Shown here one piece after another: positions 25,645 to 48,578 of a stretch of 64,000 nucleotides of DNA. The notes under the pieces are model-generated. The model was not told the DNA's origin, did no database searches, and saw nothing but the letters and a program-made list of their open reading frames with translations. Position 1 is the stretch's first letter. Every line of letters starts with the position of its first letter. The stretch comes from Bacteroidales bacterium. Lineage in GTDB: Bacteria > Bacteroidota > Bacteroidia > Bacteroidales > Marinilabiliaceae. The translations under genes and the position numbers were made by a program. Where the stretch lies: the NCBI GenBank assembly GCA_024401395.1, contig JAKSLD010000005.1:1-64000 (forward strand), in the 5' to 3' direction.

Positions 25645-26136
25645 TCAAACTGCATTTTTAACCCTTTCTCGCGCCCTCATTCTCTCTCCTACACTCTTCC
25701 GTCCCCACATTTCTATACTGCCCCCTTCTGACTTCTTTGCTTGTCTTGTCTTTACCTCTATCTCTCGTACTCTCAGTATCTTTCTTCCTTCTTCGTCCTG
25801 ATATTCTTCTTCTCTATTATACCCTTCTTTCAGCAACTTGTAATAGTATGACACCGCCATCCTGTGCGCTCCTTTTTTCTTATGTTTCTTGGCAAGCCTG
25901 GCCCAGTGTCTCTTCCTGTTCCAGTTCTCCAGATCTTCATGTGCCATCTTTTGCGCTTCTGCAAACATATCTCTGCAACTCCTCTGCCTTTCACTGACCT
26001 CCACTGCCAATAGTTTGTATTTTCCGTAATAACGTTTTATGAACAGTGATACTCCTGTCTCTCTCGCTTTGGAATCTCTCTGAGCCGCTTTCCTCGCTGT
26101 CATAATGCATTTGTGTGTGATTTCTACTCTTGCCAT
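25645..26136 (-). CDS. Basic conserved-looking protein, function unknown
   Basis: A 163-residue, strongly basic protein (many Lys/Arg pairs) with helix-forming sequence, starting MARVEITHKCIMTARKAAQR. A C-terminal tail of about 40 residues is disordered-looking and Arg-rich. I do not recognise the family. Its charge suggests nucleic-acid binding, but no known DNA-binding motif is clear. It has its own promoter (minus-strand TAATTTTG at 26159-26166). Nothing else of a mobile element is nearby. Confidence 0.6.
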   Translation of the reverse strand: MARVEITHKCIMTARKAAQRDSKARETGVSLFIKRYYGKYKLLAVEVSERQRSCRDMFAEAQKMAHEDLENWNRKRHWARLAKKHKKKGAHRMAVSYYYKLLKEGYNREEEYQDEEGRKILRVREIEVKTRQAKKSEGGSIEMWGRKSVGERMRARERVKNAV

Positions 26137-26254: not shown

Positions 26255-26340
26255 AAAAAAACTGCGAGCAAACTTATACTTCTCTTGTATTAGCATATAC
26301 CCACATCTATACTTCACCTCTATCTCCTGCTTCTATGAAT
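26255..26340 (+). repeat. Intergenic repeat copy A: ACTGCGAGCAA core plus phased TATAC units
   Basis: AAAAACTGCGAGCAAACTTA is followed by 11-nt units CTTATACTTCT, CTTGTATTAGC, ATATACCCACA, TCTATACTTCA, CCTCTATCTCC and a last degenerate one. The core recurs at 28620 and, inverted, at 48552. It sits in the divergent space before the GH43 gene. Confidence 0.7.
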
Positions 26341-26402
26341 CTCACAATTGAATATTATCGTTTTTTTTCCTAACTTTAACGCCATTATCATTCACATAGA
26401 TT

Positions 26403-27998
26403 ATGAAACATATTTTCCGTACTCTTTTCGTGGGTTGCATCTGCGCTCTTGGCAGTTTGACACAGGCTGCTAACCCTTATCTCCCTCTGTGGGAACATAT
26501 CCCTGATGGTGAACCTTATGTCTTCGAGGACCCAGATAACCCAGGCAAATTCCGCGTATACATATATGGCTCGCACGATTCTCTTATCAAGGCTTATTGT
26601 GGCAAGGAGCAGGTGGTGTGGTCTGCCCCGGTTGACGACCTCAACAATTGGCGCTACGATGGCATAATCCTTGAGCCTGTCAAGGATCCGAACGGTCAGT
26701 TGCTTAACGCTGATGGTAAGGGCGATGTTCTCTTCGCTCCTGATGTAATGGAATATCGTAACCCGGATGGTACCAAGACTTATTACCTCTATCCTAATAA
26801 CCAGGTGGGGGGACGACAGGGTATGGTTGCTAAGTCTAACCGCCCTGATGGTCCGTTTGAGGTGTGTAACTGGAACCCTAAGAATCCTCGCGAGACTGTG
26901 GGCGACCTCCGCTTCGACCCTGCCGTATTCCAGGATGAGGATGGTAAGGTGTATGCCTACTGGGGCTTTGAGTCTTGTACTGGCGCCGAAATCGACCTCA
27001 ATACTATGGCTACCGTGAAGCCGGGCGGTAAAAGGGTGGATAACATGATTTCTGATTGCAAGCACGAGGGTAAATTCCGCTTCTTCGAGGCTTCTTCTAT
27101 GCGCAAAATCAAGGATAAGTATGTATTCATCTATAGCCGCATGACTGAGGAGGGGGAGTTTGGTCTGCCTCAGACTAATTATACTCTCGCGTATGCTTAC
27201 TCTGATTACCCTCTGGGCCCTTTCACATACGGCGGTACTATCATTGATGGTCGCGCTCGTGATAAGGATGAGAATGGTAAGGTCATCCCTACTGGTACTC
27301 CTAATGGTAATACGCACGGCTCTATCTGCGAAATCAATGGCCAGTGGTACGTATTCTACCACCGCCAGACTGGTACTACTGAGTATTCTCGCCAGGCTAT
27401 GGTGGCTCCTATAACTGTCGATGTCCAGACTGGCCTGGGTGGTAAGGTCTCTATCAGTGAGGCTGAATATACTTCTGAGGGCTTCGAACTTAATGGTCTC
27501 GACCCTTATAAGGCTTACCCTGCCGGAATAGCTTGCTACTTCACTGGCAAGGGCATCGCTCATCAGGAGTACCCTAATATGTTCTACACTGGCTCTTATT
27601 TTAAGGCTACTTATGCCGATGAGCCTGACTTCAAGAATCCATACAGGAACAATGATGACTATACGCCTGTCATAAACAATAATGATGGCTCAATAGTTGG
27701 CTACAAGTATTTTAACTTCGACAACTTCGATGCCGCAAAGGCTAAACTGGCTCTCAGAATGACTTCTACTGGCATTTCTGGTAATATCAGGATTATGCTC
27801 GATAGCCCTTGGGAGTCTCAGGGTGGTAAGGTTATCGGCAACATCAAACTGGGTAAGAAGATTTCTAAGCCAACTAACGTGACTGCCAAGCTGAAAATGC
27901 AGAAGCTCTCTGGCAAACACGCTGTGTACTTTGTATTCTCTTCTGCAACTCCTGATAAGGAACTTTGCGAATTGTACACTGTCCAATTCTTGAAGTAG
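26403..27998 (+). CDS. Glycoside hydrolase family 43, exported
   Basis: A 531-residue secreted glycosidase (signal peptide MKHIFRTLFVGCICALGSLTQA). The five-bladed propeller (about 25-345) has VYIYGSHDS, the pKa-tuning Asp in LFAPDVMEYRNPDGTKTY, DPAVFQDEDGKVYAYWG, the acid Glu in FFEASSMRKIKDKYVFIYS and NTHGSICEINGQWYVFYHR. The last 180 residues form an accessory beta domain. GH43 enzymes act on arabinose- or xylose-containing glycans; that fits the arabinose operon at 60.7 kb but the specificity is not readable. The weak box TAACTTTA at 26371 may be its -7 element. Confidence 0.9.
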   Translation: MKHIFRTLFVGCICALGSLTQAANPYLPLWEHIPDGEPYVFEDPDNPGKFRVYIYGSHDSLIKAYCGKEQVVWSAPVDDLNNWRYDGIILEPVKDPNGQLLNADGKGDVLFAPDVMEYRNPDGTKTYYLYPNNQVGGRQGMVAKSNRPDGPFEVCNWNPKNPRETVGDLRFDPAVFQDEDGKVYAYWGFESCTGAEIDLNTMATVKPGGKRVDNMISDCKHEGKFRFFEASSMRKIKDKYVFIYSRMTEEGEFGLPQTNYTLAYAYSDYPLGPFTYGGTIIDGRARDKDENGKVIPTGTPNGNTHGSICEINGQWYVFYHRQTGTTEYSRQAMVAPITVDVQTGLGGKVSISEAEYTSEGFELNGLDPYKAYPAGIACYFTGKGIAHQEYPNMFYTGSYFKATYADEPDFKNPYRNNDDYTPVINNNDGSIVGYKYFNFDNFDAAKAKLALRMTSTGISGNIRIMLDSPWESQGGKVIGNIKLGKKISKPTNVTAKLKMQKLSGKHAVYFVFSSATPDKELCELYTVQFLK

Positions 27999-28069
27999 CC
28001 TGATCTATACTAAAGTTTAAGCCGCACCGGTCCTCCCGATGCGGCTTAATCTTTTATGTTTCAAGTTCT

Positions 28070-28588
28070 TTACTCTATTACTCTCACATAATCTGCTTTC
28101 CTTGGCTTTGCCTCTTTTGGCTCTACCGCTGGATATCCCACCACTACGTGCCCTATTCCTTCATAGTCTCCTTCTATCCCCCACTGCTTCAACATCTGCT
28201 TGCCTCGCTCTGTGGCAAATACTTCTTTCGCTCTGTGTATCCAACACGCTCCTAGTCCTACCGCATGGGCTGCATTGAGCATATTGCCCATCACTAGCGA
28301 ACCGTCATATAGATATGTATTCCTGCTCTTGTCTGCTAATACTATTATTACTACTGGCGCCCCATAGAATGGATCTGCATTCGCTCCCAGCACTTCTGCA
28401 TTCATTTTCGAAAGCTCATCTCTAAGCTCTTTGTTCTTTACTACCACAATAAGGGGACTTTGCATTCCCATGCCTGTGGGCGCAGCCATTCCTGCCTTGG
28501 TTATCTCTTCTATCTGCTGCTGCGATGGCATGTCTGACTTGTACCCTTTTATGCTTCGCCTTGTATTCAGTGCTTCTAATGCGTCCAT
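28070..28588 (-). CDS. Nitroreductase-family flavoprotein
   Basis: A cytosolic FMN oxidoreductase of about 172 residues. The frame goes back to 28621, but ATG 28588 begins the conserved MDALEALNTRRSIKGY, so that start is preferred. Other family marks: AAPTGMGMQSPLIVVV, DGSLVMGNMLNAAHAVGLGACWIHR and the C-terminal GHVVVGYPAVEPKEA. It likely reduces quinones or nitroaromatics using NAD(P)H. The upstream region holds repeat copy B and the divergent FAD-oxidoreductase gene. Confidence 0.88.
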   Translation of the reverse strand: MDALEALNTRRSIKGYKSDMPSQQQIEEITKAGMAAPTGMGMQSPLIVVVKNKELRDELSKMNAEVLGANADPFYGAPVVIIVLADKSRNTYLYDGSLVMGNMLNAAHAVGLGACWIHRAKEVFATERGKQMLKQWGIEGDYEGIGHVVVGYPAVEPKEAKPRKADYVRVIE

Positions 28589-28619
28589 ATCTCTTTTTTT
28601 CGCAAATATACATCTTTTC

Positions 28620-28691
28620 AAAAAACTGCGAGCAACCTTAATGCTCTCTATACTCTCTCTATACTCTCACAATACCCGGTCGCTACCCTAT
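28620..28691 (+). repeat. Intergenic repeat copy B: ACTGCGAGCAA core plus phased CTATACT units
   Basis: AAAAACTGCGAGCAACCTTA leads into 11-nt units CTTAATGCTCT, CTATACTCTCT, CTATACTCTCA, CAATACCCGGT and CGCTACCCTAT. The first unit starts at the same distance from the core as in copy A. It lies between two divergent genes. Confidence 0.72.
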
Positions 28692-28745: not shown

Positions 28746-30242
28746 ATGGAAAAATTCGACATCGTAATAATAGGCGCTGGCCTTGGTGGTCTCCAATGTG
28801 GCTATATTCTTGCCGACAATGGATTGCGCGTCTGCATACTGGAACAAGATGCCCTAATCGGTGGTTGCTTGCAGACTTACCGTCGCGCTGGCTTGCCTCT
28901 GGATACTGGTTTCCACTATATAGGTGGATTGGATGAAGGCCAGATTCTTCATCGCTTGTTCAAATACTATAACCTCCTCGACCTCCCTTGGGTAAGAATG
29001 GATGATAATTGCGTCGACCGCGTTATCATCAAGGGTAAGTCTTACGATATCCCTCAGGGGTACGACAACTACGCTAATGCCCTGAAAGGCTACTTCCCTG
29101 ACCAGGCTGCTGGTATCGACGAATGGGTCAATATGATGAAACAGGTGGGTGATGGCATTTTCCATAGCCTCCAACCTCGATCTGCCGAGAGTGTATTCAG
29201 CCAGTCTCTCTTCGCACGTGGCGCCTACGAATACCTCAATAGCATCATCAGCGACCCTCTCCTCATAGATGTAATATCTGGTCCAGCCCTTAAAATGGAA
29301 CTGAACGCAGAGAAATTGCCTTTGTATACTTTCGCCCAGATTAATTCTTCTTTCGTACAGAGCGCTTACCGTATCCGTGGCGGCGGCATGCAAATCGCCG
29401 AACAGCTCCGTAAGGGTATTGAGTCTAAGGGGGGCATCGTAAAACGTAATGCTAAGGTAACTCAGATATTGGGCTCTGAAGGTCACGCGACTTCTGTTGA
29501 GGTCAATAATGGTGAATATATCGTCGAGGCTGATAAGTTTATTAGTGACATCCACCCTGCCGCTACTATGAACCTCATGGAACAGAGTGGTTTGGTTCGC
29601 AAGATTTACCGTAAACGAATCAATGGCCTCCAGAATACTTATGGTATGTTCACCACTAGCCTCATCTTGAAGGAGAATTGTGTGAAGTACCAGAATAATA
29701 ATATCTATGTCTACCGTCAGGATAATCTCTGGCACGTAGCCGATAATCTGGAACCTGATAAAATTGTCAACTCTGCCCTCATCTCTTTTGTCCCTGCAGA
29801 TAAGGGGGATAGCACCTATACCCGTAACATCGATATCCTGACTCCTATGAATTGGTCTATGGTCGATAGATGGTTTGGCACAAAAATTGCATCTAGAGGT
29901 GTAGAGTACGAGGAGCTGAAGCGCATTGTAGCCCAGAATAGCATAGAGCTGGCGGCTGAATATCTCCCCGAACTGAAGGATGCTATCCAGGAGGTCTATA
30001 CTTCTTCACCGCTGACCTACACGGATTACACCGCCACAGCTCAGGGTTCGGCATATGGTATCCAGAAGGATTACAATAACCTGATGTTTACGCTTCTAAC
30101 CCCAAGAACTCCAGTGGATAACTTGCTCCTGACTGGTCAGAGCCTCAACCTCCACGGTATCTTGGGTACTAGCATGACATCGCTCTTCACTTGCGCCGAA
30201 TTGGTTGATATCAACTATTTGGCAACCTTTATTGAAAAATAA
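28746..30242 (+). CDS. NAD(P)/FAD-dependent oxidoreductase, phytoene desaturase/CrtI-like
   Basis: A 498-residue flavoprotein. The dinucleotide-binding GAGLGGLQCGYIL is at the N-terminus, followed by EQDALIGGCLQTY and the substrate-domain RIRGGGMQIAEQLRKGIESKGG near 212. The C-terminal FAD motif LLLTGQSLNLHGILGTSMTS near 472 is of the carotenoid-desaturase / all-trans-retinol 13,14-reductase group. The natural substrate is unknown. A LolA-like carrier gene follows after 27 nt, a pairing seen in aryl polyene-type clusters, but no ketosynthase or acyl carrier gene is present here. Confidence 0.83.
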   Translation: MEKFDIVIIGAGLGGLQCGYILADNGLRVCILEQDALIGGCLQTYRRAGLPLDTGFHYIGGLDEGQILHRLFKYYNLLDLPWVRMDDNCVDRVIIKGKSYDIPQGYDNYANALKGYFPDQAAGIDEWVNMMKQVGDGIFHSLQPRSAESVFSQSLFARGAYEYLNSIISDPLLIDVISGPALKMELNAEKLPLYTFAQINSSFVQSAYRIRGGGMQIAEQLRKGIESKGGIVKRNAKVTQILGSEGHATSVEVNNGEYIVEADKFISDIHPAATMNLMEQSGLVRKIYRKRINGLQNTYGMFTTSLILKENCVKYQNNNIYVYRQDNLWHVADNLEPDKIVNSALISFVPADKGDSTYTRNIDILTPMNWSMVDRWFGTKIASRGVEYEELKRIVAQNSIELAAEYLPELKDAIQEVYTSSPLTYTDYTATAQGSAYGIQKDYNNLMFTLLTPRTPVDNLLLTGQSLNLHGILGTSMTSLFTCAELVDINYLATFIEK

Positions 30243-35189: not shown

Positions 35190-36896
35190 ATGAAAAAGTC
35201 GTTTACTCTGAAATTATTTTTCTTCGCTTGCCTCGTTCTCAATACTGGCATATCTTACGGACAGGTCGATCTTATGCAGATGGCCAAAGGAGCATACGAA
35301 GCTGACGATTACGAACAGGCTGCATCTTATCTGGATCAGGAGATTAAAAATAACCCTTCTTCTCCTGAACCTTATCTGCTGTACGACAAGATATGGAACG
35401 CCGTAGGCAATTACTCGGCAGCCGCTCAGTATTGCTCGTGGGGACTGCAACATATGACAGACAAAGACTCTCGCGAGAAACTTACCGTCGCTAGAGCTTC
35501 TGATTTGTTCGAATTGGAGATCTTCCCAGCTACTATTGAGCAATGTCTGAAAGTGATTGCTGACAACCCGAAATGTGCAGAGGCTCACAATCTGTTGGCA
35601 CTCTCATACCTTTCCCAGAATGACACTACCAGCGCGCTCTCTTCTCTGCGCACAGCCCAGAAACTATGCAAAGACGACCTGCGCATCCAGTCTCTGCTGA
35701 CCGAGGTTTTGTCCTTCTTTGGCAATAAGTCTGAAATCACTAAAGAGCTTAAGCGGGTAAAATCTCTTCTTGCTAAGATTGAAGCAAAAGAAAATACCAA
35801 GATTTCTCCCAATCTGAATCAAAACGGTATTCTTGACGCATACCACGCCTTGATTATTTGTGGTATTTCTTTGAAAAATTACGATGAAGCCGCAGGATAT
35901 ATTGTCGATTGCTATACTAAGTTCAATACGTCTATTAAGAACAATAAGACTCTGGCTGACCGTTCTATTATCGAAGCTGTCGCAAGAAATGTCGAATCTC
36001 GTAAAAATGTCATCATTAATCAGCCTAATGGCGATTTTACATATAGCGACCTCAATCGGTATATAGCTGAGTTGTATGATAATATCAGCGATAATGCAAT
36101 GACAATTAAATACCTCTTGCAGGCTCAACACGAGGATGTTGATTTCAACTACCGTTTCATCGGTCTCTCTAAACTGCTTATCTACGCCCGCCATATGGAC
36201 AAGGTACAGGAACTCATCAAAATTGAGGAGGATCGCATCAACGCTATTCCTGATATGTCTTCCCGACTGAATGCTCAGCGAATGATGAAGGGCACTTGTT
36301 CTGCTCTGCTGGCTTTGAATGAGGATTATGAAGCAGCAGCTGATGCCGCTAACGAGGCTGGAGATAAGGTTGCCGACACAAATACAAGTCTGATCTTCTA
36401 TGGCTTGGGCAAATACGAAAAGGCTCTCGAGTTTGTTGAATCGGCTCTGGCCGAAGAAATCAATACTGTCTCTTTGATGGATAAGGCTGGATTGCTTCTC
36501 TCTCTCGGACGCGACGAAGAGGCTTATGAGGCTTTTGAAACTATAGTAACTCTGAGCGATGAAAACGATCGTGAACAATATGTCGGTTACGCTGGTCTTG
36601 GCTTAGTCGAAAAATCTCGCGAAGCAATAAAGTCTTATATCGAAAAACACAAGGAGTATAGTATGTCTTACCGCGCTGCAGCTATTGCCGAGATCCTTAA
36701 CAAGGACTACGCCAAGGCAGCAGATTACCTGAAAGAGTCTTTGAAAATCGACTACTATAGTACCTTCGAGGTCGTCAACTACAACTTCTTGATCTCTCAG
36801 GCGTTTAAGGAGAGTGCAGAATACAAGGAGGTAGCAGATATGATAGCCAAAAATCGAGACCTTCTTAACGAACAATTAAAAGATATATTGCAATAA
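35190..36896 (+). CDS. Secreted TPR-repeat protein
   Basis: A 568-residue protein with signal peptide MKKSFTLKLFFFACLVLNTGISYG and helical repeats throughout (for instance AKGAYEADDYEQAASYLDQ, AHNLLALSYLSQNDTTSALSSL, YGLGKYEKALEFVESALAE). No enzymatic motif. Second gene of the TPR-retropepsin operon; it may act as a periplasmic scaffold with its neighbour. The final 22 nt overlap the likely start of the GIN-domain gene. Confidence 0.8.
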   Translation: MKKSFTLKLFFFACLVLNTGISYGQVDLMQMAKGAYEADDYEQAASYLDQEIKNNPSSPEPYLLYDKIWNAVGNYSAAAQYCSWGLQHMTDKDSREKLTVARASDLFELEIFPATIEQCLKVIADNPKCAEAHNLLALSYLSQNDTTSALSSLRTAQKLCKDDLRIQSLLTEVLSFFGNKSEITKELKRVKSLLAKIEAKENTKISPNLNQNGILDAYHALIICGISLKNYDEAAGYIVDCYTKFNTSIKNNKTLADRSIIEAVARNVESRKNVIINQPNGDFTYSDLNRYIAELYDNISDNAMTIKYLLQAQHEDVDFNYRFIGLSKLLIYARHMDKVQELIKIEEDRINAIPDMSSRLNAQRMMKGTCSALLALNEDYEAAADAANEAGDKVADTNTSLIFYGLGKYEKALEFVESALAEEINTVSLMDKAGLLLSLGRDEEAYEAFETIVTLSDENDREQYVGYAGLGLVEKSREAIKSYIEKHKEYSMSYRAAAIAEILNKDYAKAADYLKESLKIDYYSTFEVVNYNFLISQAFKESAEYKEVADMIAKNRDLLNEQLKDILQ

Positions 36897-48502: not shown

Positions 48503-48578
48503 CCTATATGTATATAAACAAGGTCATTGGAAAGTCCTTTCTGTATACGGGGAAGTATAAGTTTGCTCGCAGTTTTTT
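48503..48578 (-). repeat. Intergenic repeat copy C (inverted)
   Basis: On the minus strand AAAAACTGCGAGCAAACTTA is followed by units CTTATACTTCC and CCGTATACAGA, less regular ones, and TTATATACATA. The core and first unit are almost the same as copy A, 22 kb away. Confidence 0.65.

Follow-up and report, generated by a model that had tools for sequence, protein, structure and literature searches.

A dispersed repeat with a conserved core, phased 11-nt units and strand polarity in genomes of Bacteroidales

Repetitive extragenic palindromic sequences (REPs) and REPINs are short dispersed repeats present in hundreds of copies, and REPs are palindromic; copies of the uptake signal sequence (USS) also occur inside genes, and the unit of BrickBuilt, a repeat of Porphyromonas gingivalis, is longer than 11 nt. 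Here, we describe a dispersed repeat from a member of the Bacteroidales (Marinilabiliaceae; assembly GCA_024401395.1), in which a run of A and a conserved core are followed by units of 11 nt. It was recognised in positions 1 to 64,000 of contig JAKSLD010000005.1, the stretch of DNA that we refer to as the window. USS and DNA uptake sequences (DUS) are described as occurring about once per kb without orientation bias, and USS as having a short core, one-sided segments roughly one helical turn apart and dialects that differ between subclades (PMC1626085). Architecture imparting sequences (AIMS) are described as 8-bp words that favour leading strands and become more abundant and more biased toward the terminus (PMC5993296), and BrickBuilt as a miniature inverted-repeat transposable element (MITE), that is, an inverted-repeat element containing a minisatellite (PMC4596501).

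The repeat resembles USS in its dialects and in having a core followed by helically spaced segments, as borne out by the period and grid data below. Unlike USS, it forms open-ended tandem 11-nt arrays with cores on the same grid, and it is about ten times rarer (330 in 3.30 Mb), strand-polar and mostly intergenic, with the PF00437 ATPase below the search cut-off. Like AIMS and the FtsK orienting polar sequences (KOPS), it is a genome-wide, strand-biased DNA word, but in contrast to AIMS it is composite, measures some 50 nt and lies mainly outside genes, on the strand richer in pyrimidines. It shares with BrickBuilt the character of a minisatellite-bearing repeat of a Bacteroidales. However, a scan of the three window copies found 0 pairs of inverted repeats, and some copies lie in genes whose length is unchanged; a classical MITE is therefore not supported by the window copies. 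The hundreds of short dispersed copies recall REPs and REPINs, but the window copies have no inverted repeat and the six arrays that we folded gave no strong fold (z −1.9 to +0.6, the strongest equalled by 11 of 200 shuffles). Searches of the literature on uptake sequences, intergenic repeats, 11-bp repeats, polar motifs and MITEs found no description of the repeat, and the core string occurs in 14 papers, none of which deals with bacterial repeats, judging by titles. This agrees with an initial annotation of the window, which had matched the repeat to nothing known by name.

Core and 11-nt units across the genome

The genome to which the window belongs (G000) comprises 3,303,652 bases in 47 contigs. 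The initial annotation had placed three copies of the repeat in the window, and the 15-mer AAAAACTGCGAGCAA, which joins the A-run to the core, is indeed present at three places (Table 1). The 11-mer core, ACTGCGAGCAA, has 3 exact matches in the window, and 6 matches when up to one mismatch is allowed, compared to 1.19 expected. A genome-wide search with the core and a measurement of the period had been proposed, and both were carried out. The core has 82 exact copies in the whole of G000 (37 forward and 45 reverse), whereas the reversed pattern, used as a control, has 0. When the copies are aligned side by side, the majority show an A-run, then the core, then 11-nt units; a few (e.g. L017, L036 and L038) have neither A-run nor units and resemble chance matches.

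The period was measured on the 76 of 82 exact copies in which AAA precedes the core and the downstream sequence extends for 150 nt or more. Over the 77 nt downstream, base identity at a lag of 11 was 0.409 compared to 0.271 in shuffles (z 21), and identity was also elevated at lags 22 (0.367) and 33 (0.330), with all other lags from 1 to 35 at 0.301 or less. At most traces of the period were found upstream (0.291) and further downstream (0.296). In 50 copies of G000 that have other cores, lag-11 identity was 0.423, so the period holds there too. Moreover, where cores on the same strand are less than 300 nt apart, 21 of 23 spacings in the G000 DNA examined and 7 of 7 in a second genome of the genus, G011, are divisible by 11. 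Because core spacings are multiples of 11 in 28 of these 30 cases, the core itself is one cell of an 11-nt grid.

Each unit consists of about eight variable bases and a recurrent end, which is TTC or CTC in unit 1 and mostly YAG or YAC in units 2 and 3; YAG ends unit 2 in 66 of 93 copies in G000 and 35 of 54 in G011. The downstream series had been described as TATAC-like, and its 11-nt phasing stood up to measurement, but TATAC is just one of several words, the other frequent ones being AAGGGACT, CCGAGACT and TTAATGCT (read by eye). Variants of the core include ATTACGATGAA, ACTGCGATGAA and ATTGCGAGCAA. Units are more alike within arrays than between them in G000 (0.460 versus 0.312), but hardly so in G011 (0.343 versus 0.329, sd 0.011). 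Together, the copy counts and the lag-11 identity support the conserved core, phased units and many intergenic copies that the annotation had anticipated; the observation is confirmed, and it is larger than first described.

Strand polarity and copies inside genes

The repeat is polar relative to strand composition. Adjacent clusters of cores lie on the same strand in 54 of 73 cases. With the element masked and skew measured within 3 kb, 76 of 81 clusters had negative purine skew on the core strand; of the seven window sizes tried, this one gave the strongest result, with 60 to 73 of 81 for the rest. In contigs fetched later, raw skew agreed with a core on the pyrimidine-rich strand in 25 of 34 cases. 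When the skew was taken at third codon positions and corrected for gene direction with the mean over all genes in sense orientation, the core lay on the pyrimidine-rich strand in 101 of 114 clusters (29 of 33 in the later-fetched contigs and 41 of 47 in G011). Half of the neighbouring genes (0.50) lie on the strand of the element, and core-less intergenic A-runs, used as a control, showed no preference (294 of 585 on the pyrimidine-rich strand). With 11 purines among its 15 letters, the core would by composition alone be predicted on the opposite strand. All 12 cores in predicted genes of the examined DNA agree with the polarity, although four antisense ones are perhaps in false gene calls and another, at window position 35878 (+), is a single variant core within a gene, array-less and probably a chance match. 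This last core was excluded from the masked-skew count of 81 and is included in the 82- and 114-cluster and in-gene counts.

The dnaA gene lies at 34.1 kb of contig C5 of G000. To its left, 4 of 5 cores are on the plus strand and plus-strand purine skew is −0.015 (slightly pyrimidine-rich); to its right, 4 of 4 cores are on the minus strand and the skew is 0.080 (purine-rich). On the basis of this one region, the core probably lies on the lagging-sense strand. On contigs C1, C12 and C46 of G000 and C1 of G011, the gene-independent strand asymmetry flips every few tens of kb, which would not be expected of two replichores; the flips could stem from inversions or from joins in the assembly.

Wherever gene calls were needed, here and in the polarity, colinearity, matrix and breakpoint analyses, we used our own codon-usage gene caller, which misses some genes, such as that at 25645–26136 of the window. 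For the 77 of 82 exact copies that could be counted (given contig ends and the A-run condition), the flanking genes are divergent (−E+) in 17, convergent (+E−) in 15, and co-oriented in 14 (+E+) and 13 (−E−); 8 copies are inside a predicted gene and 10 have one flank lacking a predicted gene. Core strand and gene strand agree in 44 of 82 clusters, showing no bias. The tie to divergent promoters that had been drawn from two of the window copies is therefore lost among evenly spread arrangements, and we rejected a promoter or operator reading. The option of an RNA-level element is made unlikely by the fold tests described above. An Rfam scan of the window matched a tRNA only, and near the arrays of L040 only 16S rRNA was matched. 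With no hairpin and no Rfam match at these arrays, we rejected an RNA reading, an intrinsic terminator and a known RNA family. The fold test and the inverted-repeat scan showed no sign of a terminator or an insertion sequence, in keeping with the original exclusion of both.

Some copies lie inside conserved genes. In polA, the element encodes KNCEQVRLSKVLATI in G000, G011 and a third genome, G012, in a gapless alignment with eight other species. In pbpC it encodes KNCEQ in G000 and G011, with no gap at the element among eight genomes, and in queF of G011 the core AAAAATTTGCGAGCAA lies over codons that give other residues in G000, leaving the length unchanged. We scored the 33 nt after the core with a matrix built from 86 non-coding copies, on which random 33-mers have a mean of −37 and a 99th percentile of −9.6. 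The in-gene copies scored −2.9, −2.9 and −1.6 (polA), +9.4 and −7.5 (pbpC) and −4.1 (queF), compared to −14 to −46 for 15 core-less orthologs of these three genes, which the ortholog comparison covers. Copies in a LolC/E-type permease (−12.5 and −5.5) and in a peptidase M64 gene (+4.6) were scored without core-less orthologs. By these scores, element-like character extends beyond the core in the in-gene copies, which may have been made by selection or drive and not by insertion. In hrpB, G000 and G011 carry a net gain of 11 codons relative to five species without the element; this equals 33 nt or three units, the fewest whole units that preserve the reading frame. In another bearer genome, G013, the corresponding codon of hrpB holds a different core, followed by a run of N. 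The repeat has thus grown by whole 11-nt units in one gene, hrpB. At L032:1945–2355, the signal-peptide region (..LSGCSQFFNK) of a predicted lipoprotein is encoded by the element's reverse strand, and by our own reading of the sequence the element would supply the residues around the likely lipobox cysteine.

Range, turnover and exchange

A wider core, AAAAWYTRCGANVAA, has 330 matches in G000, 194 in G011, 152 in G012 and 156 in G013, compared to 0 to 5 in the other 11 genomes of the genus; the backward control gave 3 in G000 and 0 to 3 in genomes of the genus. Across 71 genomes of the family, from 21 genera, copy number is high in only 4 and at most 15 in the rest, with backward-control counts reaching 21. 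Within 872 kb of G000, where core and unit scoring took 93 of 95 cores, 43 of the 93 scored copies have ACTGCGAGCAA and the remainder carry ATTACGATGAA, ATTGCGATGAA, TTTACGATGAA, ACTGCGATGAA and a few more cores. In 800 kb of G011, 47 of 54 scored copies carry ACTGCGAGCAA. Ahead of the gene at 28746, the locus of copy B, the arrays of G012 and G013 use other cores and words, and no core was found upstream of the orthologous gene in G011 and G006. The 700 nt downstream of tpiA, the locus of copy C, hold no core in G012, G011, G006 or G013; the TpiA protein of G012 is 100% identical. The arrays drift as species-specific dialects of core and words.

Matches of 18 nt were found in 34 named stretches, of which 28 came from three metagenome-assembled genomes (two from horse faeces, one Bacteroidia); the other six were from scattered species and by eye had no array downstream. 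A collection of viral sequences contained one exact 18-mer match, which had no array behind it, and we therefore rejected carriage by viruses. In L071 and L079, from members of the genus, and in L117 (JAUNDI), parts of the arrays seem by eye to shift to a 9–10 nt period with CTAG units. In G019, a family member of another genus, 10 of 15 matches are AAAATCTGCGAGAAA and some copies lie 128–145 nt apart; these are perhaps an unrelated repeat of that genome.

Copies are gained and lost between close genomes. A script count at colinear places found a G011 counterpart for 3 of 15 G000 clusters and a G000 counterpart for 4 of 8 G011 clusters, the core pair at 110842/111403 of contig C46 being counted as one absent cluster although 110842 has a G011 counterpart. 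At moderate identity, the G000/G011 sites that we read showed no clear target duplication. Cores are enriched at breakpoints between the two genomes: they occur in 16 of 37 breakpoint intergenic intervals in G000, where 8.2 (sd 2.3) were expected from length-matched intervals, and in 12 of 32 in G011, where 5.0 (sd 1.9) were expected. Breakpoints were the ends of non-colinear blocks, and of 59 such ends we used the 45 (G000) and 43 (G011) that touch an intergenic interval. This larger count supersedes a first one on 39 ends, which found a core at 12 (G000) and 14 (G011) against backgrounds of 33/176 and 39/310 and was weaker for G000. In one region of 90–95% identity, G011 carries a 7.2-kb segment with cores on either side, and at the same place in G000 two cores are separated by 67 bp; the segment holds an open reading frame (ORF) that we read as a glycosyltransferase.

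The polA genes of G000, G011 and G012 (L160, L159 and L158) show 90–99% DNA identity per 150-nt window when G000 is compared with either of the others. Identity is mostly 55–80% for pbpC, hrpB and the copy B gene, and 92–100% for tpiA. This pattern suggests that polA was recently exchanged among the three genomes. Among windows with at least 93% identity, 5 of 14 have a core within 900 bp, compared to 11.5% of 443 others.

In the window, copy C is flanked by genes of the TIM and UpxY families, and beside copies A and B are genes for a nitroreductase, a GH43/CBM6 protein and a member of the amine-oxidoreductase family; the gene settings first given for all three copies were correct. A second dispersed repeat, a near-perfect palindrome of about 95 nt (GAGTAATTGAGG...CCTCAATTACTC), stands beside arrays at L029:1360–1465 (−), L039:1835–1955 (−), L030 and near 1.76 kb of contig C20 of G000. 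Of three copies folded, two gave a strong fold (z −8.2 and −8.7), and the one in L030 gave z −2.1.

Table 1. Positions of the A-run, core and 11-nt units of the three copies in the window
Copy	Feature	Position	Strand	Sequence or units	Basis
A	A-run and core	26257–26271 (core 26261–26271)	+	core ACTGCGAGCAA	sequence match
A	4 units of 11 nt	26272–26315	+	acttatacttc tcttgtattag catatacccac atctatacttc	register as genome-wide
B	A-run and core	28621–28635 (core 28625–28635)	+		sequence match
B	4 units of 11 nt	28636–28679	+	ccttaatgctc tctatactctc tctatactctc acaatacccgg	sequence
C (inverted)	core and A-run	48563–48577 (core 48563–48573)	−		sequence match
C (inverted)	4 units of 11 nt	48519–48562	−	acttatacttc cccgtatacag aaaggactttc caatgaccttg	sequence

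Competing explanations and a possible role

We tentatively favour the reading that the repeat is a DNA signal recognised by a protein on one face of the helix, in a strand-specific process that may be recombination. The architecture, the period, the polarity with respect to composition, the in-gene copies, the growth by whole units in hrpB, the dialects and the breakpoint enrichment are seen directly in the genomes. Because the unit is exactly one helical turn, conserved positions fall on the same helix face, and a strict one-turn grid that is linked to strand but not to genes and is compatible with codons points to a double-strand DNA signal read by a protein along that face. The strand rule likewise points to a strand-specific process. 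Under this proposal, the A-run, the 11-nt core and a few downstream one-turn (11 bp) units would constitute a genome-wide signal; a protein or protein filament would bind the core and move along the face, and the polarity of the signal on the pyrimidine-rich strand would serve the process. The signal would arise in place wherever local sequence permits, conserved genes included, grow by whole 11-nt units and drift as species dialects. DNA recombination, including that with DNA from sister species, is our first choice of process because of the breakpoints, the exchanged polA and the core-flanked segment, and guidance of a DNA motor or of segregation is the second. The reading protein, the process and the link to replication direction are our inferences.

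Several observations weigh against this proposal. The binding protein is a postulate of this reading. GC skew is positive on both sides of dnaA (0.060 and 0.105), purine skew alone changing sign there, and strand asymmetry reverses many times along contigs, which leaves the link to fork direction weak. Nor do elements mark the borders of asymmetry domains: the correlation between neighbours is 0.66 with and without an element, and we rejected the idea that arrays form such borders. Most copies are intergenic, and the gap that bears a copy is the longer one in 14 of 15 measurable cases; intergenic copies therefore arrive with extra DNA or grow, which counts against pure evolution in place. The permease copy of G000 (−12.5) falls under the 99th percentile of random 33-mers, and core-less queF of G000 scores −14.1 in register, so that the contrast in that gene is modest. 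Identity is not raised at the pbpC and hrpB loci, the windows of at least 93% identity group into only some seven islands, and identity averages 0.766 near cores (n=107), hardly more than the 0.757 (n=350) far from them. Finally, a profile search for PF00437 gave 0 matches above cut-off in 15 genomes and weak matches below it in 9, other pilus parts not having been searched; this speaks against pilus-borne uptake, and we rejected a link to type IV pili on this result.

Since intergenic copies are gained and lost together with extra DNA, a non-autonomous mobile repeat must be taken seriously as a rival, but we hold it to be somewhat doubtful. Such a repeat would enter through single-stranded DNA on the lagging-strand template by annealing to similar sequence, sometimes replacing DNA at equal length and sometimes adding units, so that polarity would mark where insertion is possible and spread by copying would create the dialects. 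In line with this account, the core occupies the strand that is rich in pyrimidines and probably lagging-sense; the 12 of 15 G000 clusters without a G011 counterpart in the script count, the longer gaps around copies and the 7.2-kb segment between cores in G011 fit it too. In contrast, the window copies have neither inverted repeats nor, by eye, a constant right end, the sites read show no clear target duplication, and a donor that overwrote about 45 nt of polA would have to keep the conserved text NxEQxxLSxxLATI. A link to reverse transcriptases (RTs) was rejected: RVT_1 genes occur in 7 of 15 genomes, of which three are bearers (all four except G013) and four belong to the 11 others, and the four RT loci that we read are free of cores. 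Two RT matches in G000 and one in G011 (L310, L304 and L305) have neighbouring ORFs that resemble parts of diversity-generating retroelements, with a possible variable protein in L304; the retroelement call is our own reading of these ORFs, and the RT locus of G012 does not look so. Preferential import of DNA carrying an uptake signal, as proposed for the USS of Pasteurellaceae, would enrich the signal and exchange surrounding genes. The repeat shares with USS, as these are described (PMC1626085), dialects that differ between clades and a core trailed by segments spaced at roughly one turn of the helix, the core-bearing polA is far more alike among genomes than pbpC, hrpB or the copy B gene, and windows of high identity tend to adjoin cores. 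Nevertheless, uptake is unlikely given about one copy per 10–20 kb, the strong orientation bias (101 of 114) and the PF00437 result, and the identity of tpiA shows that high identity of a single gene may have other causes.

The length of a lagging-strand primer would equal that of the unit, and CTR is the primase start triplet in some bacteria. The arrays could then be minisatellites that arose as a by-product of replication and grew by primer-length slippage, which would accommodate the unit of exactly 11 nt, the polarity, the likeness of units within G000 arrays and the frequent YAG end of unit 2, which corresponds to CTR on the template. This account leaves the conserved core and the restriction to 4 of 71 genomes unexplained, within-array likeness is nearly gone in G011, and we consider it very unlikely. 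We give equally little credence to the idea that the arrays are operators of a single transcription regulator or RNA elements that are transcribed. The place of copies A and B between divergent genes would speak for it, but neither gene arrangement nor gene strand is related to the repeat, copies lie inside genes, and the fold and Rfam results lend an RNA no support.

Returning to a signal read by a protein, the earlier interpretation is partly supported. It missed the polarity, the in-gene copies, the 33-nt in-frame growth and the breakpoint enrichment, for which genome-scale data were needed. A bolder form of the proposal, which is possible though improbable, is a class of self-propagating, strand-polar signals that would write themselves into intergenic DNA and permissive codons (polA, pbpC, queF and the LolC/E-type permease), grow by whole turns, drift as dialects and channel recombination and gene exchange between sister species. 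If true, the repeat would be a Bacteroidales counterpart of uptake or chromosome-architecture signals, with an open-ended, turn-by-turn design and marked polarity. It would provide a direct sequence handle toward a DNA-binding protein, and it could explain gene exchange or gene-order rearrangement at defined places in these Bacteroidales.

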